Part shown: positions 26,032 through 53,497 of the stretch, one piece after another
Layout: every line of letters starts with the position of its first letter
Position numbering within the stretch: position 1 is the stretch's first letter
Source of the DNA: a virus
Length of the DNA: 64,000 nucleotides
Direction: 5' to 3' (one strand)
IMG/VR virus record: IMGVR_UViG_3300042484_000873
Span: 25,585-89,584 of that record
Program-made: the position numbers and the translations under genes
The notes under the pieces: generated by a model
Told to the model about the DNA's origin: nothing
Seen by the model: the letters and a program-made list of their open reading frames with translations, nothing else
The model's database searches: none

Positions 26032-26040
26032 AAAATCTCT

Positions 26041-27615: not shown

Positions 27616-27629
27616 TTTATATCCTTAAA

Positions 27630-28775: not shown

Positions 28776-28777
28776 AT

Positions 28778-31907: not shown

Positions 31908-31915
31908 AATATTAT

Positions 31916-33621: not shown

Positions 33622-33639
33622 CACAAATCCTTTATATGA

Positions 33640-33647
33640 TATTTATC
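33640..33647 (-). promoter_or_regulatory. Late promoter box on minus strand (GATAAATA)
   Basis: The minus strand reads GATAAATA, ending 18 bases before the ATG at 33621, with AAAGGA as ribosome binding site in between. It would drive the eight-gene minus-strand operon (33.6 to 23.4 kb). It lies in an 88-base divergent intergenic region together with an opposite-facing box at 33697. Confidence 0.5.
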
Positions 33648-33696
33648 AGGATCTATTTTCAGGCATAAATTAATAATTTTTACAAAGGATAGGATT

Positions 33697-33704
33697 ACTA
33701 AATA
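33697..33704 (+). promoter_or_regulatory. Late promoter box (ACTAAATA), 5 bases before the ATG
   Basis: ACTAAATA is followed by TAAGC and then the ATG at 33710. No ribosome binding site lies between box and start, so a leaderless transcript is predicted. AGGATAGG (33685-33693) lies upstream of the box and could only act if transcription starts further upstream. Confidence 0.4.
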
Positions 33705-33709
33705 TAAGC

Positions 33710-35053
33710 ATGATAAACAACGAAGATACCGTATGCCACTTGCGTTGGGGATATCCCAACTTTAGTCTCTCCCGCAATGAAATTCGCACCTGCTGCAAGA
33801 CACCATTTCAAACCATCAATGATGGTATGATGGACAAGTACGGTACAGATATTTTTCTGAACACTGATTATCAGAAAAAAAGAAGAATGGAAATGCTTCA
33901 GGGAGTTAAACATAGTGACTGCAAAAGTTGCTGGAGTTTAGAAGAAGCCGGAGCAAAAAGTTTGCGTGGTAACAACCCATACGGGTTTATAGATTATGCC
34001 AACAGACATCAGATGTTTCAGGAATTTACGCTTCCTACGCTAGTAGAGATAGCTAATCAAGTTACAATAGACAGTAAAATACTAGAAAGCAATAATCCAT
34101 TCATGCTTGAGGTAAGTCTAGGTAATACATGTGATATGAAGTGTATGTACTGTAATCATGTATATAGTAGCCAGTGGGCATCAGAAAGTTTAAAGAACAA
34201 TACCATCAACATAGAAATCTATAAACAAGTACAAACAAATCCCAATGAAAGATTCATTAATTTGTTTTGGAATTGGGTAGATACAAAAGCAAAACATTCA
34301 TTAGACAGAATTGGTATCATCGGCGGTGAACCATTGATTACTCCTGAGTTCTATGATTTCTTAGATAAGCTAATAGAAGTCTATGCTGATAAAGAAGGTT
34401 CTAAAACTAGAATCTGGGTAGTTACTAATTTAAATGCCACAGACAATTACTATAACAAGTTTTTAGAATACATTCCTAAACTATCAGATAAATTCATATT
34501 AGAAGTTCACATCAGTATGGAAGCATTGAGTGACCAAGCTGAATATATTCGCAATGGACTTGAGTGGAGTCGATTTGAAAGTAATGTAAATAAAATATTT
34601 GCTAGTGATGCTGACATTGAATTAGCATTTTTACCAAGTGTCACTGCGTTGGCTATACCAAGATTTCCTAAGTTTCTCAAATGGGTCTATGATTTATCTA
34701 AGACACATGACAAGGCAGTCATGCTTAAACAAAACATAGTGACACATCCCGATGTTCAATCACCGTTTATATTGCCTCCAGAATTTGCTGACTACTTAGA
34801 TCCTGCGATTGATTGGATGCAAAGTATATCAGTAGATATGCCAGATGTTAGTGACAAATTTGGCACATGGCCCGGCTATACTGATTTTTTAATTAAACTA
34901 CGTGATGGTATTAGATTCAACAAGAATGACAACACTATGCTTAAACAAAGATTTGCTACATGGTTTGATGACTTTGATAAAAAAAGAAATTTGAATTTTG
35001 TTAACACGTTCCCTGAACTAGCAAAATTCTACGATGAATGTAAAACACAATAA
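33710..35053 (+). CDS. Twitch-type radical SAM protein, 447 aa
   Basis: N-terminal auxiliary segment (C9, IRTCCKTP, DCKSCWSLEEAG) followed by LGNTCDMKCMYC, with radical SAM cysteines at about 141, 145 and 148, then IGIIGGEPLI and EVHISMEAL. It is the close paralog of the gene at 17546, on the same strand but 16 kb away and on the other side of the minus-strand block. Length and motif order are the same, so it appears intact. Followed after nine bases by a 33-residue gene and then the carbamoyltransferase. Confidence 0.85.
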   Translation: MINNEDTVCHLRWGYPNFSLSRNEIRTCCKTPFQTINDGMMDKYGTDIFLNTDYQKKRRMEMLQGVKHSDCKSCWSLEEAGAKSLRGNNPYGFIDYANRHQMFQEFTLPTLVEIANQVTIDSKILESNNPFMLEVSLGNTCDMKCMYCNHVYSSQWASESLKNNTINIEIYKQVQTNPNERFINLFWNWVDTKAKHSLDRIGIIGGEPLITPEFYDFLDKLIEVYADKEGSKTRIWVVTNLNATDNYYNKFLEYIPKLSDKFILEVHISMEALSDQAEYIRNGLEWSRFESNVNKIFASDADIELAFLPSVTALAIPRFPKFLKWVYDLSKTHDKAVMLKQNIVTHPDVQSPFILPPEFADYLDPAIDWMQSISVDMPDVSDKFGTWPGYTDFLIKLRDGIRFNKNDNTMLKQRFATWFDDFDKKRNLNFVNTFPELAKFYDECKTQ

Positions 35054-35062
35054 GGAGTTAGT

Positions 35063-35164
35063 ATGAAATGGATTAAAAATTTAATAGATAAAATTCGAAT
35101 GGAAATTTACTATCGAAAACGTCTTAAAGAACTTAAAAAACGAGACCCATTCATCTACAAATAA
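35063..35164 (+). CDS. Very small basic protein, 33 aa
   Basis: A 34-codon ORF with a strong ribosome binding site (AAGGAG, 35052-35057) filling the gap between two larger genes. It is highly basic and probably one amphipathic helix (KWIKNLIDKIRMEIYYRK, then LKELKKRDPFIYK). Spacing and ribosome binding site make it a credible gene although it is too short for most gene finders. The ending RDPFIYK is reminiscent of small conserved proteins of T4-like phages, from memory only. Possible nucleic-acid or membrane-surface binding. Confidence 0.6.
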   Translation: MKWIKNLIDKIRMEIYYRKRLKELKKRDPFIYK

Positions 35165-35166
35165 GC

Positions 35167-36666
35167 ATGAACTATATTGGAATATCATGCGGCTTCCATG
35201 ATGCCGCAGTAAGTGTTATAGATGACAACGGTAACATTTTGTTTGCGGGTCACAGTGAACGATACAGTAAAAACAAACATGATTCACACCTATGTCTCCC
35301 TTTAATCACTGATGCCAAATCATACATGGATAGTGATGAATATCAAGTTCACTACTATGAAAGACCTTGGGTTAAGTATTTAAGACAACTGCGTTCCGGA
35401 GAACCACGCTCATTGCGTAACTTATCAGCTAAGAATGTGATAGGGTCATCTATAGTTAAGCATCAGCTAGATAACAAAACTATACACACTCACAATCATC
35501 ATTTAAGTCATGCTGCCGCAGGCTTTCAGACAAGTCCCTACGATGATGCTACTGTAGTTGTTATTGACGCTATTGGCGAGTTTGATACTATAAGCATTTA
35601 CAACGCATGGTATGATAAGAATGGCAAAGCACAGTATAAGAAGTTATGGGGGCAACATTATCCGCATAGTATAGGATTATTCTATAGTGCTATGACACAA
35701 CGTGTAGGACTACGCCCATTAGACGAAGAATATATTCTCATGGGTATGGCAGCTTATGGTAAACCAAACTTAAAAAAAGAATTAAAAGAAATGTCTGACA
35801 CATTAGTAAAATCATACAAAGACATTACTTTCAAACATAACTTGCACATGGGTGTAACTGATACTTTCTTAGAAGGTGCAGATGACATGGATATCGCATG
35901 TAGCGCACAACTAATTGCTGAACAGTTAATTACTAATGTTATCAGTAAAGCAAAAATGTTGGGTGGTAGTAAGAATCTTGTATATAGTGGCGGCGTAGCA
36001 TTAAATTGTTTAGCAAATAGATTATTAGGAAATTTTTATGAAAACATTTGGATTATGCCTAATCCTGGCGATGCTGGTTCTAGTCTTGGAGCGGCCTGTC
36101 TTGGCTATAGTAAACGTGTTAATTGGACTAACGCTTTTCTCGGCTATGACATTAGTGGGCCTTATCCTACTAATCGTATACTTGATAGCCTACTCACTGA
36201 TAAAATTGTGGGAGTCGCTAACGGACGAGCAGAGTTTGGCCCAAGGGCCTTGGGAAATAGAAGCTTACTTGCAGACCCTAGAGGAACAGAAATCAAGGAC
36301 GCAGTAAATGAAATCAAACGAAGACAAAAATTTAGACCTTTTGCGCCAGTCATTTTGGAGGAATATGCTGATACTTATTTTGATATGCCTCGTGGTTTCA
36401 ATAATAGTAGGTATATGCAGTCAATCGCCCGTTGTAGGGTTCCTGACTTATTTCCTGCTATCGTTCACCACGACGGCACTAGTCGTGTCCAGACTGTCCC
36501 AAAAGATGGAAGTGGAATACGAGAACTCCTTGAAAAATGGTACGTCTTGACTGGTTGTCCAATGTTATTGAACACATCATTGAACATCAGGGGCGAGCCA
36601 ATGGTAAATGACCAAAAAGATGCGGATCGTTTTGAATTAATGTATAATGTTAAAGTTATATCATAA
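35167..36666 (+). CDS. Carbamoyltransferase (NodU/TobZ family), 499 aa
   Basis: The N-terminal Kae1-like part has YIGISCGFHDAAVSVID and HHLSHAAAGFQTSPYDDATVVVIDA, with paired His residues for metal binding. The centre has LVYSGGVALNC, and the C-terminal YrdC-like part has RAEFGPRALGNRSLLADPR and RRQKFRPFAPVILEE. These are hallmark motifs of O-carbamoyltransferases that move a carbamoyl group from carbamoyl phosphate to a sugar or antibiotic hydroxyl. At 499 residues it is shorter than typical members (about 550-600) but keeps both domains. The accessory context suggests carbamoylation of the same glycan or peptide handled by neighbouring enzymes. Confidence 0.9.
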   Translation: MNYIGISCGFHDAAVSVIDDNGNILFAGHSERYSKNKHDSHLCLPLITDAKSYMDSDEYQVHYYERPWVKYLRQLRSGEPRSLRNLSAKNVIGSSIVKHQLDNKTIHTHNHHLSHAAAGFQTSPYDDATVVVIDAIGEFDTISIYNAWYDKNGKAQYKKLWGQHYPHSIGLFYSAMTQRVGLRPLDEEYILMGMAAYGKPNLKKELKEMSDTLVKSYKDITFKHNLHMGVTDTFLEGADDMDIACSAQLIAEQLITNVISKAKMLGGSKNLVYSGGVALNCLANRLLGNFYENIWIMPNPGDAGSSLGAACLGYSKRVNWTNAFLGYDISGPYPTNRILDSLLTDKIVGVANGRAEFGPRALGNRSLLADPRGTEIKDAVNEIKRRQKFRPFAPVILEEYADTYFDMPRGFNNSRYMQSIARCRVPDLFPAIVHHDGTSRVQTVPKDGSGIRELLEKWYVLTGCPMLLNTSLNIRGEPMVNDQKDADRFELMYNVKVIS

Positions 36667-36676
36667 GTAAGTATCT

Positions 36677-39600
36677 ATGTTAAGAGATGTATTTTATTAC
36701 GGTAAAAAACCGAATGCCCACCCAAGAGAACAACACGCAATTGATTTAGCTGATGCTAGACAACAATCTACCACAGAACATTTTTGGATAATTAACGAAC
36801 TATGTGATTATCGAAATTTTGACTGGGACTTTGATTTTGATTTCTTGCCTGACGAAGATGTGTGGGCACAAGAGCATAACAATGTATGGCCTAGTCAGCA
36901 TCAAAAAGATAGCGGCACCTGGTTATGTAACACGGATAATACACACGCATTAACAATCTACCGCAATGATGTAGAACCGGTGATTCGCCGTAGAGAAAAA
37001 TCAGACGCTTGGATATTAGTTGACTTGATTGATGAAACTAAGTTTGATTTATCATGGCATCCAGACCCAACGGATCCCCCATTCATTTACAAATGGGGTA
37101 GTAAGTTTATACCAGCACAAGTTCAAGCCTGCTTAGAATATCATACTCCTAAGGCTACTCAAGTTAAGTACATGGATCAGAATATTGAACTATTACCTAA
37201 CATTGAATGCTGGAAAGAATATTATTCAATTGATAAAACTACATTTGACATGAGTTGGAGACCAGATCCAACAAGCCCTCCCTACATATATGTATGGGGT
37301 AACAAGTATATTCCCGGTGAATTAGAAGCAACTATTGAGTATCATTGTCCCGGTGCAACAGAACGCAAGTATGTGGATACTCTTGTTGACGTATTACCGC
37401 AGCAAGAACGATGGAATATAGTACAACAACCAAAATACTTTGATTACAGTTGGAGACCTGATCCACGTGAACCGGCATACATCTATGTATGGGGTAATAA
37501 ACACATTGCCGGAGAACTAAAGTCCACGATTGAATATCACTGCCCCGGTGCAACAGAACGCAAATACATGGGTGACATTGAAGTAGAACCTGAAATGGAT
37601 CGATGGAAAGTAATACAGGACATTGACAAAACTAAGTTTGACATGAGTTGGAGACCGGATCCGCGTGAACCGGCATACATCTATGTATGGGGTAACAAAT
37701 ATGACCCTGCTGAAGTTAAGCCTACTTTAGAATATACAGTACCGGGTGCTACTGATAAAAAGTACATGGGTATTGTAGATTTAGAACCAGAGTGGGATAG
37801 ATGGAAAGAACATATACTTGTAGATAGAAACTCATTTGATTTTAGTTGGAGACCAGACCCCAACTTACATGAACTACCTTATATCTATGTATGGGGTAAT
37901 AAATTTCACCCAGCTGAAGAAAAACCCACTGTTGAATATCACGTGCCGGGTGCTACTGAGTACAAGTACATGGGTATTGTTGATTTAGAACCTGAATGGG
38001 ATAGATGGAATATAGTTATTCCTATTGATATGAATAGTTTTGATTTTAGATGGAGACCTGATCCTAATCTATATGAACCACCGATGATATATGTTTTTGG
38101 TAACAAGTGGAATGATAGTGCGACTGAACCAACAATAGAGTATATTGTTCCCGGCGCCACTGTTAAAAAATATATGGACTATCCTCTTGCTATACCTAAG
38201 ATTGATATGTCACTATGGACAGTAAGCAACAACGATGACTTAGAAACATTTGACTTTAGTTGGAGACCTAATCCACATAGTCCACCTCAAATATATCAGT
38301 GGGCTGATAATGGTCCTCGCTATACTGTACCTGATGCGACAGAAGTAGTATTGATGGAACGTATTGAAAATACACAGAAATCAGAAGTTAATCGTTATAA
38401 AATTAAAACAACATTAGAAGAATTGATATTAGAACACCAAGATGAAGTGTTCTGGGCTATTAATCCTGACTTAAGTTATAGTAGATTTGATTTCAACTGG
38501 AGACCAAATGAAGAAAACTTTAGACACATAAATGTATTTGGTAACGAATATAGTAAGAACACACAAACTTACTATGTTAACGCACCATTGTACATGATGG
38601 GTCATAGAGAGTTTAACTATGTTGAGGATCAAAAAGTTGAAGTTGATAGTAACTTGAGCATGTTCTTTGTTGATAAGAGCAATGTAGAAAGCAAATATCG
38701 TTTTGAAGAACTACAAAAGCGTTATCCCAAGATCCAAAAGACAAGATACTTGAACAGTTGGGTTGACACTATCAATCGTTGTATCAATAAATCTGAGACA
38801 GAATTGTGTTGGATATTGAACAGCGAGCTAGATTACACTGGCTTTACATTTGATTATTATCCTAGCCCATGGCAACAGAAAATGGTTCATGTGTTTGGCA
38901 CACAATGGAGTCACTGGGGAACTACATTCATGGTTAACAAAGAATCATTCCCTGAAGATACAAAGTATGTAAAAATTATAGAACACTTGAATAACCTCAA
39001 TTTTGTCAAAACAAAACGAGCATTCGCAAGCAATTGTATATATGATGTGTACTTGATTGACTACGGTAACGACAGCACAGCTAACATTACTTCATTAATT
39101 GAAAACAAAACAAAGAAGAATGTCTACACCATTGAGTATGCTGGAGATTATTTGTCTACATTGAAAAATATGTTGTATGAGTTAGGTATCAAAAAGGATC
39201 ACTATATCTGGGTATGTAGTTCTATTTGTGACTACACTAATTTTGACTTCACTTACATATGTGACCCCTTCTCATTAGAACAATTACATGTATTCCCCAG
39301 TGATAAACAAAAATACGGAGACACATTCTTTGTAAATGTAAATCGATTACGTACATTGGTTGAAGATTTAGATACATTAGAAAATATCGATAAGATTAAC
39401 TTTAATCAACATCAGCAAGTAAAACGTTTACCTGCTCCTAGCTTTATAATTGAAAGTGATACACATGTCTCTGTTACTAATACTGATTTTGATTGGCCTT
39501 ATGCTACGTTTGTTACGGCTGACAACAAAGAAATAAAAGTTGTTGACAATGAACCAATTAGCTTATGGTCAAAAGAATCTAAGAACATATTAATTACTAG

Positions 39601-40381
39601 CACCGGCGGAACACATATTATTGTTCCAAAAGAAGCTAAAGAGTATGTTAAAAATGAATTGTATGATTACCCATACATTGCTAAATCTAACAAACTAGCA
39701 ACATCCCAGCCACTGGATATAGTCTTCCTAAGCAACGGCGAAACCGATGCCGACGAGAATTATGAACATTTACTGAACGTGACTAGGGGATTACCTAATA
39801 GAGTTGTTAGAGTTGATGGTATCAATGGTCGTGTACAAGCCTATCATGCCGCAGCAAAAGCAAGTAACACACCCTGGATGTTTACCGTGTTTGCTAAGTT
39901 GCGTATCAACAGTAAGTTTGATTTCTCATGGCAACCAGACAGACTGCAAGTTCCTAAGCATTACATTTTCTACGCAAGTAACCCAGTCAATGGTTTAGTA
40001 TATGGTCACCAGGCTATGATTGCGTACAATAAACAGATTACATTAGGTAACATAGGTAAAGGTCTTGACTTTACATTGGATAGCGAACACGAAGTTGTTG
40101 AATTGAATAGTGGTGTAGCAAGATACAACACTGATGAATTTAGCACATGGCGTACTAGCTTCCGTGAAGTAATTAAGTTAAGACTAGATGATAGCCCGGT
40201 AAGCAAAGAAAGATTGAAAACGTGGTCGACCGTGGGTGTAGGTGACTTTGCTCAATATAGCATTCAGGGTGCCAAAGATGCTGTAGAATACTATGTCGAA
40301 GTTAACGGTGACATGGATAAACTTAAATTAAGTTATGAATGGTCATGGCTCAAAGATAAATTTTTATCCTCGACTAAATAA
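36677..40381 (+). CDS. Aromatic repeat protein with C-terminal glycosyltransferase-like domain, 1,234 aa
   Basis: At least seven consecutive 60-70-residue repeats (about residues 120-560) contain FDxSWRPDP, then YIYVWGNK, then EYxxPGATxxKYM. Three or four degenerate copies follow (FDFNWRPN, FTFDYYPS, FDFTYICD). The last about 240 residues (VVRVDGINGRVQAYHAAAKAS, NPVNGLVYGHQAM, WRTSFREVIKLRL) are a paralog of the glycosyltransferase-like protein at 15652, but its DGD is absent (MFTVFAKL). That domain itself includes FDFSWQPD, so the repeats seem derived from it. No signal peptide. Could be a degenerate multi-domain glycosyltransferase, a scaffold or a substrate of the modification genes. Confidence 0.75.
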   Translation: MLRDVFYYGKKPNAHPREQHAIDLADARQQSTTEHFWIINELCDYRNFDWDFDFDFLPDEDVWAQEHNNVWPSQHQKDSGTWLCNTDNTHALTIYRNDVEPVIRRREKSDAWILVDLIDETKFDLSWHPDPTDPPFIYKWGSKFIPAQVQACLEYHTPKATQVKYMDQNIELLPNIECWKEYYSIDKTTFDMSWRPDPTSPPYIYVWGNKYIPGELEATIEYHCPGATERKYVDTLVDVLPQQERWNIVQQPKYFDYSWRPDPREPAYIYVWGNKHIAGELKSTIEYHCPGATERKYMGDIEVEPEMDRWKVIQDIDKTKFDMSWRPDPREPAYIYVWGNKYDPAEVKPTLEYTVPGATDKKYMGIVDLEPEWDRWKEHILVDRNSFDFSWRPDPNLHELPYIYVWGNKFHPAEEKPTVEYHVPGATEYKYMGIVDLEPEWDRWNIVIPIDMNSFDFRWRPDPNLYEPPMIYVFGNKWNDSATEPTIEYIVPGATVKKYMDYPLAIPKIDMSLWTVSNNDDLETFDFSWRPNPHSPPQIYQWADNGPRYTVPDATEVVLMERIENTQKSEVNRYKIKTTLEELILEHQDEVFWAINPDLSYSRFDFNWRPNEENFRHINVFGNEYSKNTQTYYVNAPLYMMGHREFNYVEDQKVEVDSNLSMFFVDKSNVESKYRFEELQKRYPKIQKTRYLNSWVDTINRCINKSETELCWILNSELDYTGFTFDYYPSPWQQKMVHVFGTQWSHWGTTFMVNKESFPEDTKYVKIIEHLNNLNFVKTKRAFASNCIYDVYLIDYGNDSTANITSLIENKTKKNVYTIEYAGDYLSTLKNMLYELGIKKDHYIWVCSSICDYTNFDFTYICDPFSLEQLHVFPSDKQKYGDTFFVNVNRLRTLVEDLDTLENIDKINFNQHQQVKRLPAPSFIIESDTHVSVTNTDFDWPYATFVTADNKEIKVVDNEPISLWSKESKNILITSTGGTHIIVPKEAKEYVKNELYDYPYIAKSNKLATSQPLDIVFLSNGETDADENYEHLLNVTRGLPNRVVRVDGINGRVQAYHAAAKASNTPWMFTVFAKLRINSKFDFSWQPDRLQVPKHYIFYASNPVNGLVYGHQAMIAYNKQITLGNIGKGLDFTLDSEHEVVELNSGVARYNTDEFSTWRTSFREVIKLRLDDSPVSKERLKTWSTVGVGDFAQYSIQGAKDAVEYYVEVNGDMDKLKLSYEWSWLKDKFLSSTK
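37035..38350 (+). repeat. Tandem repeat array encoding FDxSWRPDP units
   Basis: About seven repeats of roughly 190-200 bases. At DNA level the words agTTGGAGACC(A/T/G)GATCC and ATCTATGTATGGGGTAA recur nearly unchanged, most strongly between 37240 and 37900. Homogeneity between neighbouring units suggests recent expansion or gene conversion. Confidence 0.75.
40373..40380 (+). promoter_or_regulatory. Late promoter box (ACTAAATA)
   Basis: ACTAAATA overlaps the end of the repeat-protein gene and lies 24 bases before the lipoprotein ATG at 40405. The ribosome binding site AGGAG is at 40394-40398. A short leader of normal structure is predicted. Confidence 0.5.
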
Positions 40382-40404: not shown

Positions 40405-41121
40405 ATGATAAAAAATATAGCAATTGCACTTACCGTAGCTGTCATGACAGTTGGTTGTGCTACCAACAAAGACTACCAGTTGTATGCCGAGACACAACAA
40501 AAAATTGCACAGGCACAGGCTATGTCTGACACAGCAAGATATGCGGCACTGGCAGAAATCGCCAAAACCGGTGATTCCGGCGCACGTGTTGCTGCCGTTA
40601 TGAGCATCAATTTTGGATCACAGTCTGGAAATAGCCCTAGAGTTCAACAAGTTAATCCTCCAAAAACGTTTGGAGACACAGCACTACAATGGACCAGTGT
40701 ATTATTGCCTAGCTTGACCAATATCTACGGTATCACTGCCAATCGTCAGGTTGCTGTTACACAAAGCAACAACGCGGCTGCTGTCGCAAAAAGCACTAAT
40801 GACACATTTGCCACAATGAACGGCAACATGGCAACCTCTAACACTGCTATTGCTAATTCAGGATTTACAGCCGTTACCAACGTGGCTAACAGTGGACTAA
40901 CTGCTGTAACTAATGTAGCCAACACAGGTATTGGACAAGTAGGTACCACTGCGGCGGCTGGATTAACTGCGGTGACTGCGGTAAATGCTAGTAGCAATAC
41001 TGCTATTACTAATGTAGCCAATGCAGCCAATGCCAGTATCAAAGCAGTAGCAGACATTATTCCGCAGTTACAACCAAATGTAACTACAACGACTACAACG
41101 ACAAATAACACTACACCGTAA
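40405..41121 (+). CDS. Predicted lipoprotein with Ala/Asn/Thr-rich repeats, 238 aa
   Basis: A signal peptide with hydrophobic core (IAIALTVAVM) and a lipobox VGC at residues 16-18 predict lipid attachment at Cys18. Residues 20-100 are helical and Ala/Gln-rich. From about 135 there are repeats of the type (G)FTAVTNVANSG, followed by a poly-Thr tail near the C-terminus. It should be exported and anchored in a host membrane. It has its own late box and AGGAG site. A role in envelope alteration, lysis or superinfection exclusion is conceivable; none is shown by the sequence. Confidence 0.7.
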   Translation: MIKNIAIALTVAVMTVGCATNKDYQLYAETQQKIAQAQAMSDTARYAALAEIAKTGDSGARVAAVMSINFGSQSGNSPRVQQVNPPKTFGDTALQWTSVLLPSLTNIYGITANRQVAVTQSNNAAAVAKSTNDTFATMNGNMATSNTAIANSGFTAVTNVANSGLTAVTNVANTGIGQVGTTAAAGLTAVTAVNASSNTAITNVANAANASIKAVADIIPQLQPNVTTTTTTTNNTTP

Positions 41122-41169: not shown

Positions 41170-41235
41170 TTAAGACTGTATGAAGTAGATAGAAACGGAT
41201 TCAAGACGCGGGGGCAGTGCCCGCCAGGTCCACCA
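41170..41235 (+). ncRNA. ssrA: tmRNA acceptor piece (3' half with encoded CCA)
   Basis: Ends with the encoded CCACCA after the acceptor strand CAGGTCC. The T-stem GCGGG/CCCGC is intact, but the 7-base loop is GGCAGTG instead of the usual TTCRANN, an odd departure. GACTGT at 41174-41179 can pair with ACAGTC at 41374-41379 of the coding piece, a possible inter-piece helix. The 5' boundary is approximate. Confidence 0.75.
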
Positions 41236-41331
41236 AAAGCATACTGGCATCTGGATGATGGGCCCGACGGGGTCAGTGGTTCAATTCCACTACAGGCAAT
41301 GAGGTTCGAATCCTCACAGTGTGCTTTTGAT
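41236..41331 (+). other. Internal spacer of the permuted tmRNA precursor
   Basis: A 96-base segment between the CCA end and the coding-piece 5' end. It is closed by an 11-bp helix, 41236-41246 with 41317-41327 (AAAGCATACTG/CAGTGTGCTTT, one G-U), which would stack on the acceptor stem. Inside are two T-arm-like hairpins: GTGG-TTCAATT-CCAC (41276-41290) and GAGG-TTCGAAT-CCTC (41301-41315). I could not fold a complete tRNA cloverleaf from them. Presumably removed by host RNases. Confidence 0.65.
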
Positions 41332-41517
41332 GGGCCTGACACAGGATCGATTGGGTCAAGAGTATTGAAATGGACAGTCCGGCAATGTAGAAGCCGTTAG
41401 GATTGGGGGAACCCGGTCGAAGACACTAAAAAAGTAACCGCAAACGACTCACAGTTCGCATTAGCTGCCTAAACTCAGCTTAGGGTAAGACATACCTCGT
41501 AACAGAAACTCAAAATT
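41332..41517 (+). ncRNA. ssrA: tmRNA coding piece with proteolysis tag ANDSQFALAA
   Basis: Starts GGGCCTGAC at 41332 and contains the resume region GTAACC-GCA, with the resume codon at 41440-41442. The tag ends at TAA (41470-41472), and AGCTG...CAGCT flanks the stop as a short hairpin. The tag ends in ALAA, the usual ClpXP signal; the ANDxxFALAA pattern is that of betaproteobacterial tags. Confidence 0.8.
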
Positions 41518-41656: not shown

Positions 41657-42556
41657 ATGACAACAACAATTACAATTAAAGATAAGCCGGTCAATGCGAC
41701 ATATCAAAATGTCACAGGCTTGACAGGTGGTTCAGGTGACGGCGCCGCATTTGATGTGACAAAGACTGACGGAGTTTACTCTGTAGTACTCGACTCATTA
41801 GCGGCAAGTGCAGGAACAGGTTATGTAGCAGGTGACACAATCACACTAGCTGGCACAGCATTGGGCGGCACAAGTACAAACAACTTAATCGTCACAGTTG
41901 CAACAGTTGGTACATTGGGTAAAGTTGCTACATTTGGTGTAGTAGGTACTGGTCGAATTGGTGATGGCACAGTTGACGTTCAAGTTGACGTTACTGGCAC
42001 AACCGGCATCGATACTTACACAGCAGGTGGTGCTAGCACAGAATTTACAGTTACTAAAACTGCTACCGAAGTAAAATTAGCAAGCACATTAGTTTCTAAT
42101 TTAGAAATTAAACTTGCTGACCATGAGCGTGTTGTATTCACAAACAAAGCTATTGCGTATGATGCCGCAGGTCGTGCAGGTGATGTATATGCATTATTAG
42201 CTGCCGCGCTTGGTACTAGTGATGTTACTAACGCATACAAAGGTATTGGTATTCATCTTGCAGATGCAGGTTGGACAAACAAAGAATTGGCAACAGCGTT
42301 ACTTGCTACTGACACTTATAAAACTGATGCAGGCGGTGTTAGCAATGAAACATTCATTAAGCACGTTTACAAAAACGTATTTGGTACTGATGCTACATTG
42401 ACACAAGTTACAGAATATACAACTTGGATGACTAATAGTAATCTAAGTCAATCTGATGTTCTAGTAGCCGCAAGTGAATTAGCCGCGTTTGAAACAACTA
42501 TTGGTTTAGTTGGTTTAGCAACAACTGGTATTGAATACACTCCGTTCGTTGCGTAA
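41657..42556 (+). CDS. DUF4214-type secreted/surface protein, 299 aa
   Basis: The N-terminal about 165 residues are Thr/Gly/Val-rich and beta-like (GTGYVAGDTITLAG, VGTGRIGDGTVDVQ). The C-terminal about 120 residues fit DUF4214: AYDAAGRAGDVYALLAAALG, then TFIKHVYKNVFGTDATLTQVTEY and VLVAASELAAFE. In bacteria DUF4214 occurs in RTX/S-layer-like and adhesin proteins that are often exported. No N-terminal signal peptide is present, so export, if any, would need a type I-like route. Own sigma70 promoter and terminator make it a single-gene unit between tmRNA and porin. It may be host-derived. Confidence 0.7.
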   Translation: MTTTITIKDKPVNATYQNVTGLTGGSGDGAAFDVTKTDGVYSVVLDSLAASAGTGYVAGDTITLAGTALGGTSTNNLIVTVATVGTLGKVATFGVVGTGRIGDGTVDVQVDVTGTTGIDTYTAGGASTEFTVTKTATEVKLASTLVSNLEIKLADHERVVFTNKAIAYDAAGRAGDVYALLAAALGTSDVTNAYKGIGIHLADAGWTNKELATALLATDTYKTDAGGVSNETFIKHVYKNVFGTDATLTQVTEYTTWMTNSNLSQSDVLVAASELAAFETTIGLVGLATTGIEYTPFVA

Positions 42557-42574
42557 TCTATACTACTATAAAGA

Positions 42575-42594
42575 GGCACTTCGGTGCCTTTTTT
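42575..42594 (+). terminator. Rho-independent terminator
   Basis: GGCAC-TTCG-GTGCC hairpin followed by six T residues, 18 bases after the stop of the DUF4214 gene. Confidence 0.85.
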
Positions 42595-42651
42595 GCCATG
42601 AAGCATATGTTATTGCGTAAACAACTAAATTATATGGGTAGTAAAAATCAA

Positions 42652-42687
42652 TCTAAATATTAGTCTAGCCTGAGAAATCAGGCTTTT
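42652..42687 (+). promoter_or_regulatory. Late promoter box (TCTAAATA) followed by a 5'-leader hairpin
   Basis: TCTAAATA (42652-42659) is followed at 42667-42684 by AGCCTGA-GAAA-TCAGGCT, a 7-bp stem with a GNRA tetraloop, then TTTT. Transcription from the box would begin about at the hairpin, which could stabilise the porin mRNA 5' end. Alternatively it is a weak terminator for upstream transcripts. AAAGGAAA precedes the ATG at 42705. Confidence 0.5.
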
Positions 42688-42704
42688 ATTTAAAGGAAAA
42701 TTAT

Positions 42705-43589
42705 ATGAAGAAAATCGCATTAGCGACATTATTAGCCGCAACAACATTGGTTGCAACTGCACAAGTATCAGTATCTGGTAAAATCAGCACATTCGTTGAC
42801 AATACTAAAGTTGGTATTGTAAGCGCAACAAGTCTTGCTACTGATCCAACAAGCAACATCACATTTTCTGCCACAGAAAACATTGGTAATGGTTTGAAGG
42901 CACGTGTAGTATTAGACACTAGCTTGGCAGCTAATGATCCAACTGGTGGTGCTGATACTAAATTGGGCAACCGTCAATCTACGATTGGCTTGGCAAACAG
43001 TTTAGGCAGTGTTGACCTAGGTCGCAACCTACATAGTCACTTCTTAGCAATTACTAACAATGATGCATTTGGTACATTGTATGGTTCTGTTGCAGGTGAC
43101 GTACACAATTTGCGTGGTCTACGTATCAGCAATGGTACATTCTTTGCATTGACACCAATCAAAGGTGTTACAGCAACATATGACCGTACCCAAACTGGTG
43201 CAGGTACAGAAGCAACTAGTTATAGCGCAAGCGCAAAATTACTAGGTGTTAATGCTGTAGTTGCTCAATACACCCAAGGTGTTGAGAAAAGCACGGTATA
43301 TGGCGCAAGCGCAAAGTTGGGAAGCACACAAGTATTTTACACACGTAGTAATGATGAAGGTGCTGTAGCAAGTACGGGTGATTTGTTTGGTGCAAGCAAA
43401 GCATTTGGTCCAGTAACTGCAAAAGCTAGCTATGGTAAAACAAATACTAATGTTAAAGCTTATGCATTAGGTGCTGATTATAATTTTAGCAAGCGTACTC
43501 TTGTTGGAGTTAATTATCGTAATGTTGATGTTGCTGGTACAGCACATGACGTTAAACAAGTTGGAGTTGGTGTAACACACCGGTTCTAA
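42705..43589 (+). CDS. Outer-membrane porin (Gram-negative porin type), 294 aa
   Basis: A classical signal peptide (KKIALATLLAATTLVATA, then QVSVSGK, cleavage after about residue 19) precedes a Gly/Ser/Thr/Ala-rich sequence. Alternating beta strands such as GLKARVVLDTSL, RQSTIGLANSLGSVDLGRN and KAYALGADYNFSKRTLVGVNYR are visible, with the final VGVGVTHRF ending in the Phe needed for outer-membrane assembly. This is the pattern of betaproteobacterial general porins, though shorter than the usual about 350 residues. It would form a trimeric channel in the host outer membrane. Preceded by a late-type box and leader hairpin and followed by a strong terminator. Probably acquired from a host. Confidence 0.85.
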   Translation: MKKIALATLLAATTLVATAQVSVSGKISTFVDNTKVGIVSATSLATDPTSNITFSATENIGNGLKARVVLDTSLAANDPTGGADTKLGNRQSTIGLANSLGSVDLGRNLHSHFLAITNNDAFGTLYGSVAGDVHNLRGLRISNGTFFALTPIKGVTATYDRTQTGAGTEATSYSASAKLLGVNAVVAQYTQGVEKSTVYGASAKLGSTQVFYTRSNDEGAVASTGDLFGASKAFGPVTAKASYGKTNTNVKAYALGADYNFSKRTLVGVNYRNVDVAGTAHDVKQVGVGVTHRF

Positions 43590-43611
43590 TCTCAATGAGA
43601 TAAAAACAAAA

Positions 43612-43632
43612 GGCTCTTCGGAGCCTTTTTTT
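43612..43632 (+). terminator. Rho-independent terminator after porin
   Basis: GGCTC-TTCG-GAGCC hairpin followed by seven T residues, identical in stem and loop to the tmRNA terminator. Confidence 0.9.
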
Positions 43633-43633
43633 A

Positions 43634-43662
43634 TTGACATAAATATCATACTATGTTACAAT
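43634..43662 (+). promoter_or_regulatory. Sigma70 promoter with predicted leaderless start
   Basis: TTGACA (43634-43639), a 17-base spacer and TACAAT (43657-43662). The ATG at 43669 begins only 6 bases after the -10 box, so transcription should start at or next to the start codon. CATAAATA (43638-43645) overlaps the -35 and resembles a late box. Confidence 0.75.
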
Positions 43663-43668
43663 AACAAT

Positions 43669-43923
43669 ATGAAAATTCAACATGCAATCGATTGGAATCA
43701 AGTTAGTATTGACTTAAGTAGTCAAATGAAAGACATTGGATACAACCCGGACTTAGTTCGAATGCATTTGAATATTGGTAAAATGGTGACCGAGTTGAGT
43801 AAACTTGAGGTAACTATGCGTAGGACCGGCAAATACTCTATGATAGACGACAAAGTTATTGCAATAAACAAAGCAATCGATCACTTTGAAAAGCTACTGT
43901 TGATGGCAAATTTAATGAAATAA
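43669..43923 (+). CDS. Early-type hypothetical protein, 84 aa
   Basis: A small soluble, mostly helical protein (DWNQVSIDLSSQMKDIGYN, MVTELSKLEVTMRRTGKYS, KAIDHFEKLLLMANLMK). No motif identifies function. It starts 6 bases after a strong sigma70 -10 box, with no ribosome binding site, so leaderless expression directly after infection is likely. First of a run of small genes each with its own strong host-type promoter, a pattern typical of phage early host-takeover genes. Confidence 0.7.
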   Translation: MKIQHAIDWNQVSIDLSSQMKDIGYNPDLVRMHLNIGKMVTELSKLEVTMRRTGKYSMIDDKVIAINKAIDHFEKLLLMANLMK

Positions 43924-44403: not shown

Positions 44404-45507
44404 ATGGCATCGCAAGTTTCTGACAATCTGACAATCACCTCTGTACAAGCACGTAAAGCAATGCTTGCCGCATTCAAAGCAAAACGTCCCGTGTTTCTCT
44501 GGGGCCCTCCCGGCATCGGCAAATCTGAGGTCGTGCAAGAAGTTGCAGACGAACTCAAGGGTCACGTAATTGATTTGCGTATGGCTCAAATGGAACCTAC
44601 TGATATTCGAGGTATCCCTTTCTTCAACAAAGATATCAACAAGATGGATTGGGCGGCACCTGTTGACTTGCCTGACAATGATTTTGCTTCACAATTCCCT
44701 ATCGTTGTATTGTTCCTCGATGAAATGAACTCGGCTCCCCCAGCTGTTCAGGCAGCAGGTTATCAGTTGATTCTGAACCGTCGAGTTGGTAAGTATGTAC
44801 TGCCCGATAACGTTGTTATCGTTGCGGCAGGTAATCGTGATTCTGACAAAGGTGTTACATATCGTATGCCGATGCCCCTAGCTAATCGTTTCTTGCACTT
44901 GGAAATGCGAGCCGACTTTACTGCATGGCAGAACTGGGCTGTGAACAAAGGCATTCACAAGGACGTTGTTGGTTACTTGAGTTTTGCTAAACAAGACCTG
45001 TACGACTTTGATAGTAAATCTGCATCACGTGCATTTGCTACACCACGTAGCTGGTGTTTCGTTAGTGACTTGCTTGATGATGAAGATGGTGTTGATACTG
45101 ATACATTGTTCAACTTGGTAGCAGGTGCAGTTGGTGAGGGCCTTGCAGTTAAGTTTGCGGCTCACCGCAAGATTGCAGGTCGTATGCCCGAACCCTCTGA
45201 TATCTTGTCAGGTAAAGTTAAGGACCTTGCAGTCAAGGAAATCTCGGCAATGTACTCATTGACTATTTCAATGTGCTATGAATTGCGTGATGCACTTGAA
45301 AACAAGAAAGTGGATAGTAAGAAGTTCCATGAAATGGCTGACAACTTCTTTAACTACATCATGGCAAACTTTGAGACTGAGTTGGTTGTGATGGGTGCTA
45401 AGATTGCGCTTAAGACTTACAAGTTGCCGATCGAGCCAAGTCAGTTGAAAAACTTTGACGAGTTTCACAAGAAATACGGCAAGTACATTGTACAAGCAGG
45501 CGAGTGA
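44404..45507 (+). CDS. MoxR-type AAA+ ATPase, 367 aa
   Basis: Walker A GPPGIGKS at residues 34-41, Walker B LFLDEMN at about 103-109 and sensor 1 IVAAGNRD at about 139-146, with PMPLANRF further on, fit the MoxR branch of AAA+ proteins. MoxR ATPases act as chaperones with a partner carrying a von Willebrand factor A domain; such a partner is the next gene. Two tandem strong sigma70 promoters precede it. Phage MoxR/VWA pairs have been seen but their role in infection is not established. Base composition looks slightly richer in G+C than neighbouring genes by eye. Confidence 0.9.
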   Translation: MASQVSDNLTITSVQARKAMLAAFKAKRPVFLWGPPGIGKSEVVQEVADELKGHVIDLRMAQMEPTDIRGIPFFNKDINKMDWAAPVDLPDNDFASQFPIVVLFLDEMNSAPPAVQAAGYQLILNRRVGKYVLPDNVVIVAAGNRDSDKGVTYRMPMPLANRFLHLEMRADFTAWQNWAVNKGIHKDVVGYLSFAKQDLYDFDSKSASRAFATPRSWCFVSDLLDDEDGVDTDTLFNLVAGAVGEGLAVKFAAHRKIAGRMPEPSDILSGKVKDLAVKEISAMYSLTISMCYELRDALENKKVDSKKFHEMADNFFNYIMANFETELVVMGAKIALKTYKLPIEPSQLKNFDEFHKKYGKYIVQAGE

Positions 45508-45594: not shown

Positions 45595-46875
45595 ATGAGC
45601 GAAGTACTGAATCCCACTAAAAAGCGTAAGCGTAGTAAGAAACTAGAAAATCTTATTGGACCTACAGACCCTAAGGTCGATCACCTAGCACGTGAACGTT
45701 TGGTAACAGCACGTATTGGTCTGTTATTGCGGCATTCGTTTTTCGGTAATCTTGCTACACGGTTGACACTTATCAATGCAGACGAATGGTGTGCTACAGC
45801 GGCAACTGACGGTCAGAAGTTCTATTACAATAGCCGCTTCATTATGATGTTGAAGACTAAGGAAGTTGAATTCTTAGTAGCGCATGAGGTCCTTCACGTT
45901 GTCTATGACCACATGGGTCGTAGAGGTGATCGTGACCCGCAAATCTGGAACATTGCCGATGACTATTGTGTTAATGCCGACTTGAAACGTCACAAGATTG
46001 GTCAATTCATTACTACAGTACCTTGCTTGTACGAATCAAAGTATGATGGTAAATCGGCAGAAGAAGTATATGATGACTTGATGAAAAACGCTAAGAAAAT
46101 CAGTATGGATGACTTGATTGATCAATTGCTTGACGATCACCTTGATAGCGAAGATGGTGAAGGCGACGGTGAAGATGGTACTGGTAATAAAAAAGGTAAG
46201 GGTCGACCACAACTTTCTGATGAAGAAAAAGAACGTATTCGTCAGGAAGTTAAGCAAGCAATTATCAATGCTTCAAGTACAGCCGAAGCTGGTTCATTGC
46301 CCGCAGGTGTTGAACGATTGATTCGTCAAGCTACTGACCCGGTCATGCCCTGGCGTGAACTGATTCAAACTAACTTGACAAGTGCAATTCGTACTGACTA
46401 TAGCTGGATGCGTCCCTCACGTAGAGGCTGGCACATGGATGCTATCATGCCCGGCATGACTCCCGGAGAAGAAATTGATGTTGTCGTTGCGATTGACATG
46501 AGTGGTTCTATCAGCGATAAACAAGCACAACAATTCTTAGGTGAGATTGGTGGCATGATGGATTCGTTTGATGGTTACAAGGTCCATGTGTTTTGCTTTG
46601 ATACTGAGGTGTATAACCCACAAGACTTCAATTCGGAGAACATGGATGGTATTGATACATATGAGCCTATGGGCGGTGGTGGTACTGACTTTGATGCTAT
46701 CTTTGAATACTTGAAGAAAGTAGGCAATGTACCTAAGCGACTGATTTGTTTCACTGATGGTTATCCCTGTGGTAGCTGGGGTGATGCAGATTACTGTGAT
46801 ACGACATGGGTCATTCATGGTGATAAGAATCCTAATCCCCCATTCGGTACTTACGCAATCTATGATGAAAGATAA
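45595..46875 (+). CDS. VWA-like / putative metallopeptidase-fold protein (DUF2201 type), 426 aa
   Basis: A basic N-terminus (KKRKRSKKLE) is followed by a zincin-like motif HEVLHVVYDH at residues 97-106 (HExxH plus a further His). An acidic linker (about 185-205) leads to a VWA domain with the MIDAS motif DMSGS at about 301-305, GGGGTDFD and CFTDGYP. This matches the DUF2201 layout of a metallopeptidase-like N-domain plus VWA-like C-domain. It is the expected partner of the MoxR ATPase upstream. Both have their own promoter rather than one shared transcript start. Possibly remodels a host or phage complex. Confidence 0.85.
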   Translation: MSEVLNPTKKRKRSKKLENLIGPTDPKVDHLARERLVTARIGLLLRHSFFGNLATRLTLINADEWCATAATDGQKFYYNSRFIMMLKTKEVEFLVAHEVLHVVYDHMGRRGDRDPQIWNIADDYCVNADLKRHKIGQFITTVPCLYESKYDGKSAEEVYDDLMKNAKKISMDDLIDQLLDDHLDSEDGEGDGEDGTGNKKGKGRPQLSDEEKERIRQEVKQAIINASSTAEAGSLPAGVERLIRQATDPVMPWRELIQTNLTSAIRTDYSWMRPSRRGWHMDAIMPGMTPGEEIDVVVAIDMSGSISDKQAQQFLGEIGGMMDSFDGYKVHVFCFDTEVYNPQDFNSENMDGIDTYEPMGGGGTDFDAIFEYLKKVGNVPKRLICFTDGYPCGSWGDADYCDTTWVIHGDKNPNPPFGTYAIYDER

Positions 46876-50527: not shown

Positions 50528-51486
50528 AAATTTTAGTTACAGGCGGTCTCGGCCTTATCGGACACAACGTAGTAAATAAACTACAACAACAAGGTCACAA
50601 TGTTGTCATTACTGATACTCGCACTACTTATGGTATTATTCCACAAGATGAAATCGATTATTTAATGGCTGAACGGCTAAAAAAGATTCAGCCAGGACAA
50701 ATACATGCTATAGATATTGTTAGTGATAGTATTGATTGGTTGTTTGAAAGATATAAGTTTGATATGGTGATACATATGGCAAGCTTCCCTAGACAAAAAG
50801 TTGTTAATGCTAATCCTAGACTAGGAGCAAAAACAATGATGGAAGGCTTATTGAACTTATGCGAAGCAAGTAAAAAACATAATGTAAAGAAGTTCATTTA
50901 CATTAGTTCAAGTATGGTATACGGAGATTTTATTAATGATGTGACTGAGGACTATGATTGTAAACCTCAAGGTCAATATGGAATTATGAAATTAGCAGGT
51001 GAACATCTTGTTAAAGACTATAGCCGTCGTAATTGTTTTAGTCACACTATTATTCGACCTAGTGCAGTGTACGGAGAACTAGATGTTGAAGACCGTGTGA
51101 TTGCTAAGTTTATGCTGACAGCAATGCGCGGTGGTACATTGAATGTCAATGGTGCTAATGAAACATTAGATTTTACTTATGTAGAAGATGCCGCAGATGG
51201 TATCGTTGGTGCCGCACTATCTGATAATACAGAGAACAAAACATATAACATCACCAAGTCACACAGTAGAACATTACTTGATGCCGCAAACTTAGCAGTT
51301 AAGTGTGCAGGTAAAGGTACAATCAATGTCAGGGACAAAGACGCAGACTTCCCAAGTCGTGGTGCATTAAACATTGATGCGGCACGTAAAGACTTTGGAT
51401 ATGATCCTAAAGTAGATGTAGAAGAAGGCTTTGAAAGATATTATGAGTGGTTGTGTACCAGTATATATTGGAATTCAAAAATATGA
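50524..51486 (+). CDS. NAD-dependent sugar epimerase/dehydratase (extended SDR), 320 aa
   Basis: The Rossmann motif TGGLGLIG is at residues 6-13, followed by SSSMVYG at about 128-134 and the catalytic YGIMK (Tyr152, Lys156), with IIRPSAVYGE and FTYVEDAADG further on. This is an extended short-chain dehydrogenase such as UDP-/GDP-sugar 4-epimerase or dehydratase. Start 50524 is chosen because it gives an ATGA overlap with the previous gene and places the Rossmann strand at the N-terminus. First gene of a four-gene operon with radical SAM and aminotransferase genes. Confidence 0.9.
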   Translation: MKILVTGGLGLIGHNVVNKLQQQGHNVVITDTRTTYGIIPQDEIDYLMAERLKKIQPGQIHAIDIVSDSIDWLFERYKFDMVIHMASFPRQKVVNANPRLGAKTMMEGLLNLCEASKKHNVKKFIYISSSMVYGDFINDVTEDYDCKPQGQYGIMKLAGEHLVKDYSRRNCFSHTIIRPSAVYGELDVEDRVIAKFMLTAMRGGTLNVNGANETLDFTYVEDAADGIVGAALSDNTENKTYNITKSHSRTLLDAANLAVKCAGKGTINVRDKDADFPSRGALNIDAARKDFGYDPKVDVEEGFERYYEWLCTSIYWNSKI

Positions 51487-52439
51487 AAATCCCAATCAAA
51501 GTAGAAAGAGCCACTGCTACAAAACATAAATTTATTGAGTGGATGATCCATGATGTGTGCAACTATAATTGTAGTTTTTGCTGTAATGAAAATAAGGCAG
51601 GCATCAATCGGTGGACCACAATAGAAAAATACAAGGAATACGCCGACAAGATAATATCACAATGTGATGGTAATCCATTATGGATACAATTCACAGGAGG
51701 CGAACCAACATTATTTCCTGATCTATTGGAACTGATGCAATATGTAAAAAATAAAGGTGCGTATGTAAGTTTATTAACTAATGGATCACGAACATTAAGA
51801 TGGTGGGAAGAATTAAAACAAGGCAAATGTTTAGATAATTTAATGTTGACCTATCATCCTGAGCAAACTAATGACTATATACATGCCGCTAACGTGTTAA
51901 ACTTATTTCATTACGAAGAAACTAGTACATCATGTTTAATAACTCATACTTATTCAGTGTTTGATAAATCTATTATAGCCAGAGATTATATGCGACAACA
52001 CACCGGAGCTTACATTATTTACAAAGCAATGAAGACTGAGGACATGGAAGTGTTTTCTGAATATACAGTAGAGCAATTGAAAGAAGTAATGATTCCTAGT
52101 TTTGCGGGTGACAAAATTGATTCAAAGGTTAAACCTAAAATACCAAGTGACTGTAAATTAAGTGATTTTATGAAAATATCGTACAATAATGGAATTAAAG
52201 AAGTGGTTAGTACTCAACACTTACTGAAAACAAAACAAAACAATTTCAACGGATGGATGTGTAACGTAGGAATGAATACTATACGAATAGCTAATAATAA
52301 ATTTTATAGGGGAATTTGCGAAGAAGGTGGAATACAAGGGTCACTTGACGGTGAAATTAAATTTAGCACTCAGGAGATACGATGTACTAAAAATAGGTGT
52401 TATTGTGACACCGATTTGTTCACTACTAAAACACGATGA
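51483..52439 (+). CDS. Radical SAM protein with C-terminal SPASM/twitch-type domain, 318 aa
   Basis: Radical SAM motif CNYNCSFC at residues 26-33, then FTGGEPTLFPDL and NGSRTLRWWEELK. The C-terminal auxiliary segment has WMCNVG, ICEEGG and CTKNRCYCD. The start at 51483 gives an ATGA overlap with the epimerase; an upstream in-frame ATG at 51447 lies inside that gene. Closely related to the gene at 53484 and to 16605. It follows a nucleotide-sugar enzyme and precedes an aminotransferase, so radical chemistry on a sugar (for example dehydration or epimerisation) or on an amino-sugar conjugate is a reasonable inference. Confidence 0.85.
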   Translation: MKIPIKVERATATKHKFIEWMIHDVCNYNCSFCCNENKAGINRWTTIEKYKEYADKIISQCDGNPLWIQFTGGEPTLFPDLLELMQYVKNKGAYVSLLTNGSRTLRWWEELKQGKCLDNLMLTYHPEQTNDYIHAANVLNLFHYEETSTSCLITHTYSVFDKSIIARDYMRQHTGAYIIYKAMKTEDMEVFSEYTVEQLKEVMIPSFAGDKIDSKVKPKIPSDCKLSDFMKISYNNGIKEVVSTQHLLKTKQNNFNGWMCNVGMNTIRIANNKFYRGICEEGGIQGSLDGEIKFSTQEIRCTKNRCYCDTDLFTTKTR

Positions 52440-53497
52440 ATATACTTCATTTTGGTCTAATAAGACAGTATAAGAATATCGGTGAAGAGTTGCTAGATGC
52501 AACTCACCGTGTCCTTAAAGATGGACAACTTGTAGGTGGACATTATACACACTCGTTTGAAGAATGGTTAAGGCATCGCACTAAAACAAAGTATGCTGTC
52601 ACAGTTCATAGTGGTACACAAGCATTAGAGATTATTGCAAGATATAAGAAAAAGAAACACTTAGAGACATTTAAAAATACTCCCAAGATTCTAATCCCCA
52701 ATCTAACTTATCCTGCAACATTAAACTCAGTATTAAGTGCTGGATGGGATGTTGAATTAGTTGACACTGATAAGAATGGTATTATTGACGTAGAGAATAG
52801 TCTTAAAGGCTACACATGCGTTATGGGATATGCTGGCCGCAAGCCGTGGCCTATTGCAGGATATGCTAGCGCAAATGCAGTGATTGTAGACGGAGCACAA
52901 CACTGGTTAGTATGTGACGGTGATGTGGGTAGCGGTATGTCTATCAGCTTTGACCCTACAAAGAATCTACCTAGTTCAGGTAACGGTGGTGCTATTGTTA
53001 CAAATGACGAACAACTATACTTGTTTGCCGCAACACATAGAGATAATAACAAGCCTGCATTCCATGATGTAGGAACTAACAGTAAGATGAGTGAACAAGA
53101 TTGTGCTCAGATATTAGTTAGAGCAAAGTACATAGATGAATGGCAAAAGCGTAGAGGTGAGATAGCAAAGTATTGGTGTGATGCGTTCAGAGACTTACCA
53201 TTGACTTGCTTATCTGATACAAAAGACCCTCACGCACATCAAAAGTTTGTAATATACTTACCTGATCGCAATAGTTTACATACTCATTTACTGACTGATG
53301 GCATTAATAGTAAAATTCATTATAATTATGTACTAGGTGATTTACCAACTACAAAGAATTTATCAAAGCCTGACTTACTTTCTACTAGCGTAATGCTTTC
53401 TAGGGGTGTATTAAGTTTGCCTATTTACCCTGAATTGACTGATATAGAAGTGGACTATATAGTAGATAAGGTTAAAGGATTTTATGTTCCCGATTGA
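52436..53497 (+). CDS. DegT/DnrJ/EryC1/StrS-type PLP aminotransferase, 353 aa
   Basis: Shows the family order: HSGTQALEIIA (phosphate/PLP contact), PNLTYPATLNSVLSAGW, VDTDKNG, VIVDGAQHW (Asp for the PLP ring nitrogen), then SFDPTKNLPSSGNGGAIVT with the Schiff-base Lys at about residue 176. KMSEQDCAQILVR follows. These enzymes add an amino group to 3- or 4-keto nucleotide sugars, so with the epimerase it could make an amino sugar. Overlaps the flanking radical SAM genes by 4 and 14 bases. Confidence 0.9.
   Translation: MNILHFGLIRQYKNIGEELLDATHRVLKDGQLVGGHYTHSFEEWLRHRTKTKYAVTVHSGTQALEIIARYKKKKHLETFKNTPKILIPNLTYPATLNSVLSAGWDVELVDTDKNGIIDVENSLKGYTCVMGYAGRKPWPIAGYASANAVIVDGAQHWLVCDGDVGSGMSISFDPTKNLPSSGNGGAIVTNDEQLYLFAATHRDNNKPAFHDVGTNSKMSEQDCAQILVRAKYIDEWQKRRGEIAKYWCDAFRDLPLTCLSDTKDPHAHQKFVIYLPDRNSLHTHLLTDGINSKIHYNYVLGDLPTTKNLSKPDLLSTSVMLSRGVLSLPIYPELTDIEVDYIVDKVKGFYVPD

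Follow-up and report, generated by a model that had tools for sequence, protein, structure and literature searches.

Porin genes have been described in several groups of phages and viruses. The Lc/NmpC porins of the lambdoid phages PA-2 and DLP12 belong to the OmpC family and are thought to displace receptor porins, and we know of no exchangeable slot for them. Like the locus analyzed here, these phages carry a porin gene, but they are temperate and enterobacterial, whereas the present phage is T4-like and its porin matched only Porin_4, which places it outside the Lc/NmpC group. A review reports that a phage porin transcript yields the sRNA ipeX, a regulator of OmpC (PMC12197685). In viruses of oxygen-minimum zones, an OmpL porin gene with a predicted promoter and terminator lies beside glnK-amtB (PMC8115048). 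OmpL is likewise a phage-encoded porin with nutrient-transport neighbors, but it is of Bacteroidetes type, and the accessible part of that report presents one cassette and describes no clade-wide distribution or barrel exchange.

Further phage-borne porin folds of 285-612 aa are held in BFVD. The uncultured Caudovirales proteins A0A6J5L4P1 and A0A6J5LP82 (15-17% identity) and an OprO/P-like protein of ctBLh2 (11% identity) represent different families. These entries show that a porin in a phage is not in itself a novelty. T4-like cyanophages encode small barrels (Phage_OMP, PF24653), and pstS is present in such phages (PMC3686209). Among bacterial proteins, the closest are the general porins of betaproteobacteria (Porin_4), such as Omp32 of Comamonas/Delftia, Neisseria PorB, and BpsOmp38. 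The phage family shares their 16-strand barrel, L3 eyelet, charged residues, signal peptide, and C-terminal Phe, but it forms a separate clade with about 33% identity at best, has predicted phage late control, and has L4-L8 loops about one third as long. What is new is a clade-wide, loop-shaved porin family and a slot that exchanges unrelated barrels behind one late leader. In the open-access literature searched for porins encoded by T4-like phages, no description was found of this family or of an exchangeable barrel slot.

Identity and predicted fold of the porin

The window, that is, the whole stretch of 64,000 nucleotides analyzed, lies within an 89,584-bp IMG/VR metagenome virus record. 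A reading of the sequence alone had proposed a betaproteobacterial-type outer-membrane porin with an intact signal peptide and terminal Phe. The gene and its parts are as follows.

42705..43589, + strand: porin gene, 294 aa, ATG start; a 16-strand outer-membrane beta-barrel according to Porin_4, AF2, and Foldseek
42705..42761, + strand: signal peptide MKKIALATLLAATTLVATA, predicted from sequence, with an AxA motif and cleavage before Q20
43032..43121, + strand: loop L3, the "eyelet", residues 110-139; the most conserved region of the protein

The proposed identity is confirmed. The Pfam search that the sequence-only reading had recommended for Gram-negative porin families matched Porin_4 (PF13609) over residues 7-293 (E=1.1e-21; 78.4 bits against a cut-off of 27). 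Porin_4 was the sole Pfam family matched up to E=1, and the OprO/P phosphate-selective porin family was not matched. No PHROGs family was assigned. The PDB sequence match was Neisseria PorB (4aui, E=1.5e-8), and the score against the Neisseria PorB equivalog NF040479 was 36.8 bits, compared to the 480 needed. An AlphaFold2 model with 36 phage relatives in the input (pLDDT 85.7) has 16 barrel strands and an L1 hairpin. Foldseek comparison of this model with the PDB returned Omp32 first (2fgq, E 2e-16; 1e54, E 1.1e-15; TMq 0.80-0.82), and the top folds were Omp32, PorB, and BpsOmp38 (TMq about 0.72-0.82). The betaproteobacterial type is supported, and the bacterial porin relatives are Burkholderiales.

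The protein begins with MKKIALATLLAATTLVATA followed by Q. This signal peptide has a Lys-Lys start (MKK...ATA, then Q) and appears as a low-confidence helix at residues 2-16 of the model. The C-terminus is VGVGVTHRF, with the terminal Phe. In the model, L3 (residues 110-139) carries short helices and folds inward as an eyelet. The residues H110, D120, H134, and R140 are invariant across 46 phage porins. In sum, this record of a T4-like phage encodes an intact porin of the Gram-negative type, and the gene is no stray from a host.

Genomic context and host

T4-like hallmark genes flank the porin in the record of this lake phage, including a terminase large subunit, a gp32-like SSB, SbcCD (gp46/47-like), and a baseplate wedge. 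These hallmarks suggest that the phage is virulent. Together with conserved neighbors and the occurrence of the gene on 57 viral contigs, they uphold the view that the gene is phage-borne. The porin is located in a variable cargo stretch that is bounded on the right by conserved genes for an 84-aa protein, an ATPase of MoxR type, and a VWA protein.

41657..42556, + strand: DUF4214-domain protein, 299 aa (Pfam E=1.2e-5); upstream neighbor of the slot
43669..43923, + strand: conserved 84-aa protein; closes the slot downstream, with a sigma-70-like promoter at 43634-43662
44404..45507, + strand: MoxR-like AAA ATPase (PHROG 1297, E=5e-98); conserved right flank
45595..46875, + strand: VWA/metallopeptidase-like protein (DUF2201_N, E=3e-42); conserved right flank

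The host is likely a betaproteobacterium, because the porin relatives are from Burkholderiales and tmRNAs of related phages match beta_tmRNA. A permuted two-piece tmRNA lies at 41174-41472 (+) of the window. It scores 102 bits with Rfam RF04321, for which the gathering score is 47, and its tag was read by eye as ANDSQFALAA. ARAGORN found no tRNA or tmRNA and thus missed the permuted form. The tmRNA also occurs in four relatives (L008, L009, L013, and L020), and in two of these it matches the Rfam beta_tmRNA model.

Expression unit

The porin gene is enclosed by a set of predicted control elements.

About 42570..42594, + strand: terminator that ends the upstream gene (42555-42600 folds with -13.1 kcal/mol, z=-3.7)
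42653..42662, + strand: late promoter box CTAAATATTA, of the T4 late TATAAATA type, 43-52 nt before the ATG
42667..42684, + strand: 5' UTR hairpin AGCCTGA-GAAA-TCAGGCT, predicted to lie near the start of the late transcript
42692..42697, + strand: ribosome binding site AAAGGA, from sequence and kept in relatives
43608..43629, + strand: porin gene terminator AAAAGGCTCTTCGGAGCCTTTT (stretch of -15.5 kcal/mol, z=-4.7)

Both the late box and the strong terminator had been noticed in the sequence-only reading, and both held up; the 5' hairpin and the upstream terminator had escaped it. A late-type box stands before 7 of the window's 51 ORFs, where 0.75 would be expected. The box is kept approximately 50 nt upstream of the porin in relatives, and in several of them it is TATAAATATTA, the T4 late box. 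The 5' hairpin (-11 kcal/mol, z=-2.7) follows directly after the late box and is succeeded by a T-rich stretch. In 20 sequences, all five consensus pairs of the hairpin show compensatory changes. A 5'-terminal hairpin is expected to stabilize a transcript, as established for ompA. The hairpin and T-rich stretch could also be an attenuator of read-through. The upstream terminator is given in its minus-strand reading in the terminator listing. Because this second terminator lies just upstream, the porin cistron is isolated and monocistronic. The gene downstream has its own sigma-70-like promoter. The porin thus appears to be a monocistronic late-type unit, and its expression is probably late and strong.

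Ancestry and selection

An alignment scan identified porin relatives on 57 IMG/VR contigs (43-94% identity), compared to 23 contigs with a single-protein scan alone. The reading frame is unbroken up to a terminal Phe in every relative that could be read to its end (56 translated; contig ends truncate 3 of the 57). The initial assumption that porins are rare in T4-like phages does not hold for this phage group, with its 57 contigs, though tblastn against 50,697 INPHARED phage records, from which those near the window's own may have been excluded, gave no porin match at E<=1.

With the phage alignment, a motif-based scan of the genomes of 84,980 bacterial and archaeal species detected no relative. 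A looser alignment matched porins of Burkholderiales and other betaproteobacteria, the best full-length match having about 33% identity. HMM searches of 13, 301 (family-level), and 399 (order-level) genomes yielded nothing closer than those bacterial porins, and the closest in the latter two sets was a Limnohabitans porin (E=4e-31). A phylogeny with bacterial porins, also recommended at the outset, placed the phage porins in a separate clade: in a maximum-likelihood tree, 33 phage and 31 bacterial porins are split with a support of 100/100 and a long stem. Because of this phage-only clade, its long stem, and the lack of anything closer in the bacteria searched, the porin is considered old in these phages. 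Recent pick-up from a host was ruled out by the genome scans, the HMM searches, and the long stem.

The phage porins are under purifying selection, with a median pairwise dN/dS of 0.27. Nonsynonymous change per site is 0.083 in the L3 eyelet, 0.198 in the strands, and 0.28 in L4-L8. This pattern is that of a working channel, and we judge the porin to be functional. Recombination may also occur within the gene. The porins of L018 and L021 (the same genes as in L047 and L054) are near-identical in the C-terminal part and different in the N-terminal part, and this mosaic is a sign of such an event.

Shaved surface loops

Loop lengths of 46 phage and 54 bacterial porins were mapped on the AF2 model. 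The total of L4-L8 has a median of 22 residues (18-35) in the phage porins versus 66.5 (31-113) in the bacterial ones, with a p value of 6e-18 that counts related sequences as independent and is therefore descriptive only. Strands and periplasmic turns are equal in length and L1-L3 are similar in the two groups. Two bacterial porins, L089 (Limnohabitans) and L114, overlap the phage range with 31 residues. From the sequences compared, loop shaving is thus extreme in the phage porins, not unique to them. Receptor avoidance would be consistent with the shaved loops, and a working channel with the conserved eyelet. The family keeps the bacterial barrel and eyelet and loses much of the phage-facing surface.

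Exchange of barrel genes

The leader of the gene can be used to look for related loci regardless of what they encode. In a search unbiased as to coding sequence, the noncoding leader pattern TAAATATTADTCTAGCCTG had 25 matches among 2.9 million viral contigs. All of them lie before outer-membrane barrel genes, with a signal-peptide gene beginning 50-60 nt after each. Twenty-two of these genes are porins according to the HMM, two of them running past the sequence end. The other three encode barrels of 181-183 aa that end in Phe and have no porin-HMM match at E<=10.

Small barrels occupy the same position as the porin. In L206, a 183-aa barrel is found at the porin position, with the same neighbors as those around the porin in L204. 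Its family is present on more than 20 contigs and is predicted to form a 10-strand barrel, with loose PDB matches only. In L298, a small barrel directly follows the DUF4214 gene, as the porin does in the window. Other small barrels are located at this locus in L214 and L217, and the former has a weak Phage_OMP match (E=0.013). The locus resembles T4-like cyanophages in carrying small barrels, but its main small occupant, the L206 family, is matched by neither Pfam nor PHROG and is predicted to fold with 10 strands. A 335-aa porin in L186/L187 groups with bacterial porins on a long branch and is probably a second, independent acquisition.

The window, L186, and L206 share the late box, the hairpin, and the core of the terminator, despite their unrelated barrel genes. 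Among 80 loci found via the neighboring ATPase, 21 have a porin, 31 have none, and 28 are too short; loci were counted as porin-lacking only where 6 kb or more lay upstream. Because 31 loci have none there, the idea that the porin belongs to the core genes of these phages was rejected. Taken at the sequence level, the porin gene occupies an exchangeable slot behind a fixed late leader and before a fixed terminator. Because the porin is swapped with a 10-strand barrel, the slot must serve more broadly than the word "porin" implies.

Possible roles of the slot

Our preferred reading, held with modest assurance, is that of a dedicated outer-membrane slot, in which the shaved, functional porin adds to or replaces host porins late in infection and likely keeps solutes entering. 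A fixed frame of late promoter, 5' hairpin, strong ribosome binding site, and terminator would drive a single exchangeable beta-barrel gene. Late in infection, the porin would be made in quantity, exported by Sec, and inserted by the host Bam machinery, where it may add to the host porins or replace them. The most likely net effect would be that solute entry is kept after host gene shut-off and that few holds are offered to rival phages. It is also plausible, and proposed tentatively, that a general slot for remodelling the outer membrane is carried by T4-like phages that infect freshwater betaproteobacteria. Shaved porins, independently captured porins, and 10-strand barrels would be exchanged in it, each phage installing a receptor-poor surface and its own permeability.

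Alternatively, the slot may serve receptor replacement or superinfection exclusion. The shaved porin would then displace host porins that serve other phages, or sister virions nearby, as receptors, and channel activity would merely keep the cell viable. Only the extracellular loops, which receptor-binding proteins contact, are shaved, and the acceptance of unrelated barrels is expected if surface occupancy outweighs transport. The regulation of OmpC by ipeX from a phage porin transcript (PMC12197685) is a precedent. However, late timing is late for exclusion, and the most conserved part is the eyelet rather than the surface, which leaves this explanation possible but on the unlikely side. If upkeep of the envelope were the purpose, barrels would protect the growing infected cell from leakage and premature lysis after host shut-off, and any small, fast-made barrel would suffice. 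The interchange of 10- and 16-strand barrels in one slot, the small protein that results from short loops, and the stable transcript suggested by the 5' hairpin are consistent with upkeep. A strictly constrained eyelet would be needless for it, however, and a phage-type porin is missing near the locus in many sister phages (the 31 loci above), so that we regard upkeep as improbable. A metagenomic virus contig such as this record could owe the gene to an assembly chimera or to chance host contamination. The presence of the gene on 57 contigs from many assemblies, the phage-only clade, and the T4-like genes on either side make this exceedingly improbable, and a chimera is ruled out by conserved synteny, with neighbors kept on both sides.

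Uptake of phosphate or another anion is a further candidate, in which the porin and phage PstS or TctC would form a relay from the outer membrane to the periplasm, feeding late DNA synthesis in phosphate-poor lakes. PstS is encoded less than 4 kb from the porin in L002, L008, L052, L065, and L071/L072, and pstS lies directly downstream on the same strand in L052 and L071/L072. It also follows a small barrel in L294 and L301/L302, and the barrels in such pairs are of two unrelated kinds. The adjacent same-strand porin-pstS pairs and the small-barrel pairs of L301/L302 favor uptake, as do PstS scores above the cut-off of two NCBIfam equivalog models, anion-selective Omp32 as the best PDB fold match, a porin net charge of +6 (pI 9.4), and the pstS genes of T4-like cyanophages described in PMC3686209. 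Co-occurrence is weak, however. In whole records, PstS is found in 6 of 26 porin-bearing versus 2 of 21 porin-lacking records, and a porin is within 5 kb of just 4 of 80 close pstS relatives, most phage pstS genes being elsewhere. These counts give no support to a phosphate operon, for which the gene pairs are suggestive at most. The window's record (89.6 kb, possibly incomplete) has no pstS, and a basic charge is common to the bacterial relatives. Because a 10-strand barrel is probably too narrow to serve for general diffusion, a pure uptake role leaves some occupants unexplained. In view of the counts, phosphate uptake is treated as a serious rival, possible but on the unlikely side, rather than as the main conclusion.

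Under the preferred reading of a dedicated slot, unrelated barrels that share one promoter and terminator suggest that these viruses may routinely rebuild the outer surface of the host late in infection. Phage porins have so far been viewed as odd cargo; here they form a family that has long persisted in a widespread group of freshwater phages. Should the slot have the proposed function, host outer-membrane remodelling would be a regular late step of T4-like phages. This would bear on superinfection, on nutrient supply in infection, and on how infected cells appear to other phages.

Other genes of the cargo stretch and related loci

The left edge of the cargo stretch is marked by a 1234-aa protein (window 36677-40381) with many WRPDP...IYVWGNK-type repeats and no Pfam match, which is conserved in porin-bearing phages. 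A 238-aa putative lipoprotein of no known family, with a lipobox-like VGCA, is encoded at 40405-41121, upstream of the tmRNA. Positions 17546-36666 and 51447-54437 contain several genes of the radical-SAM type together with one for a Nol-like carbamoyltransferase; these may act in glycan or DNA modification. In L204 (209-2810), a TctC solute-binding protein, a TauD dioxygenase, and a third protein stand in a row upstream of the porin and are apparent nutrient cargo. Approximately 125 nt after the phage pstS, L354 (6127-7353) and L376 (6123-7250) encode exported proteins of 376-409 aa that end in Phe; these have no Pfam match and may be further phage outer-membrane proteins.
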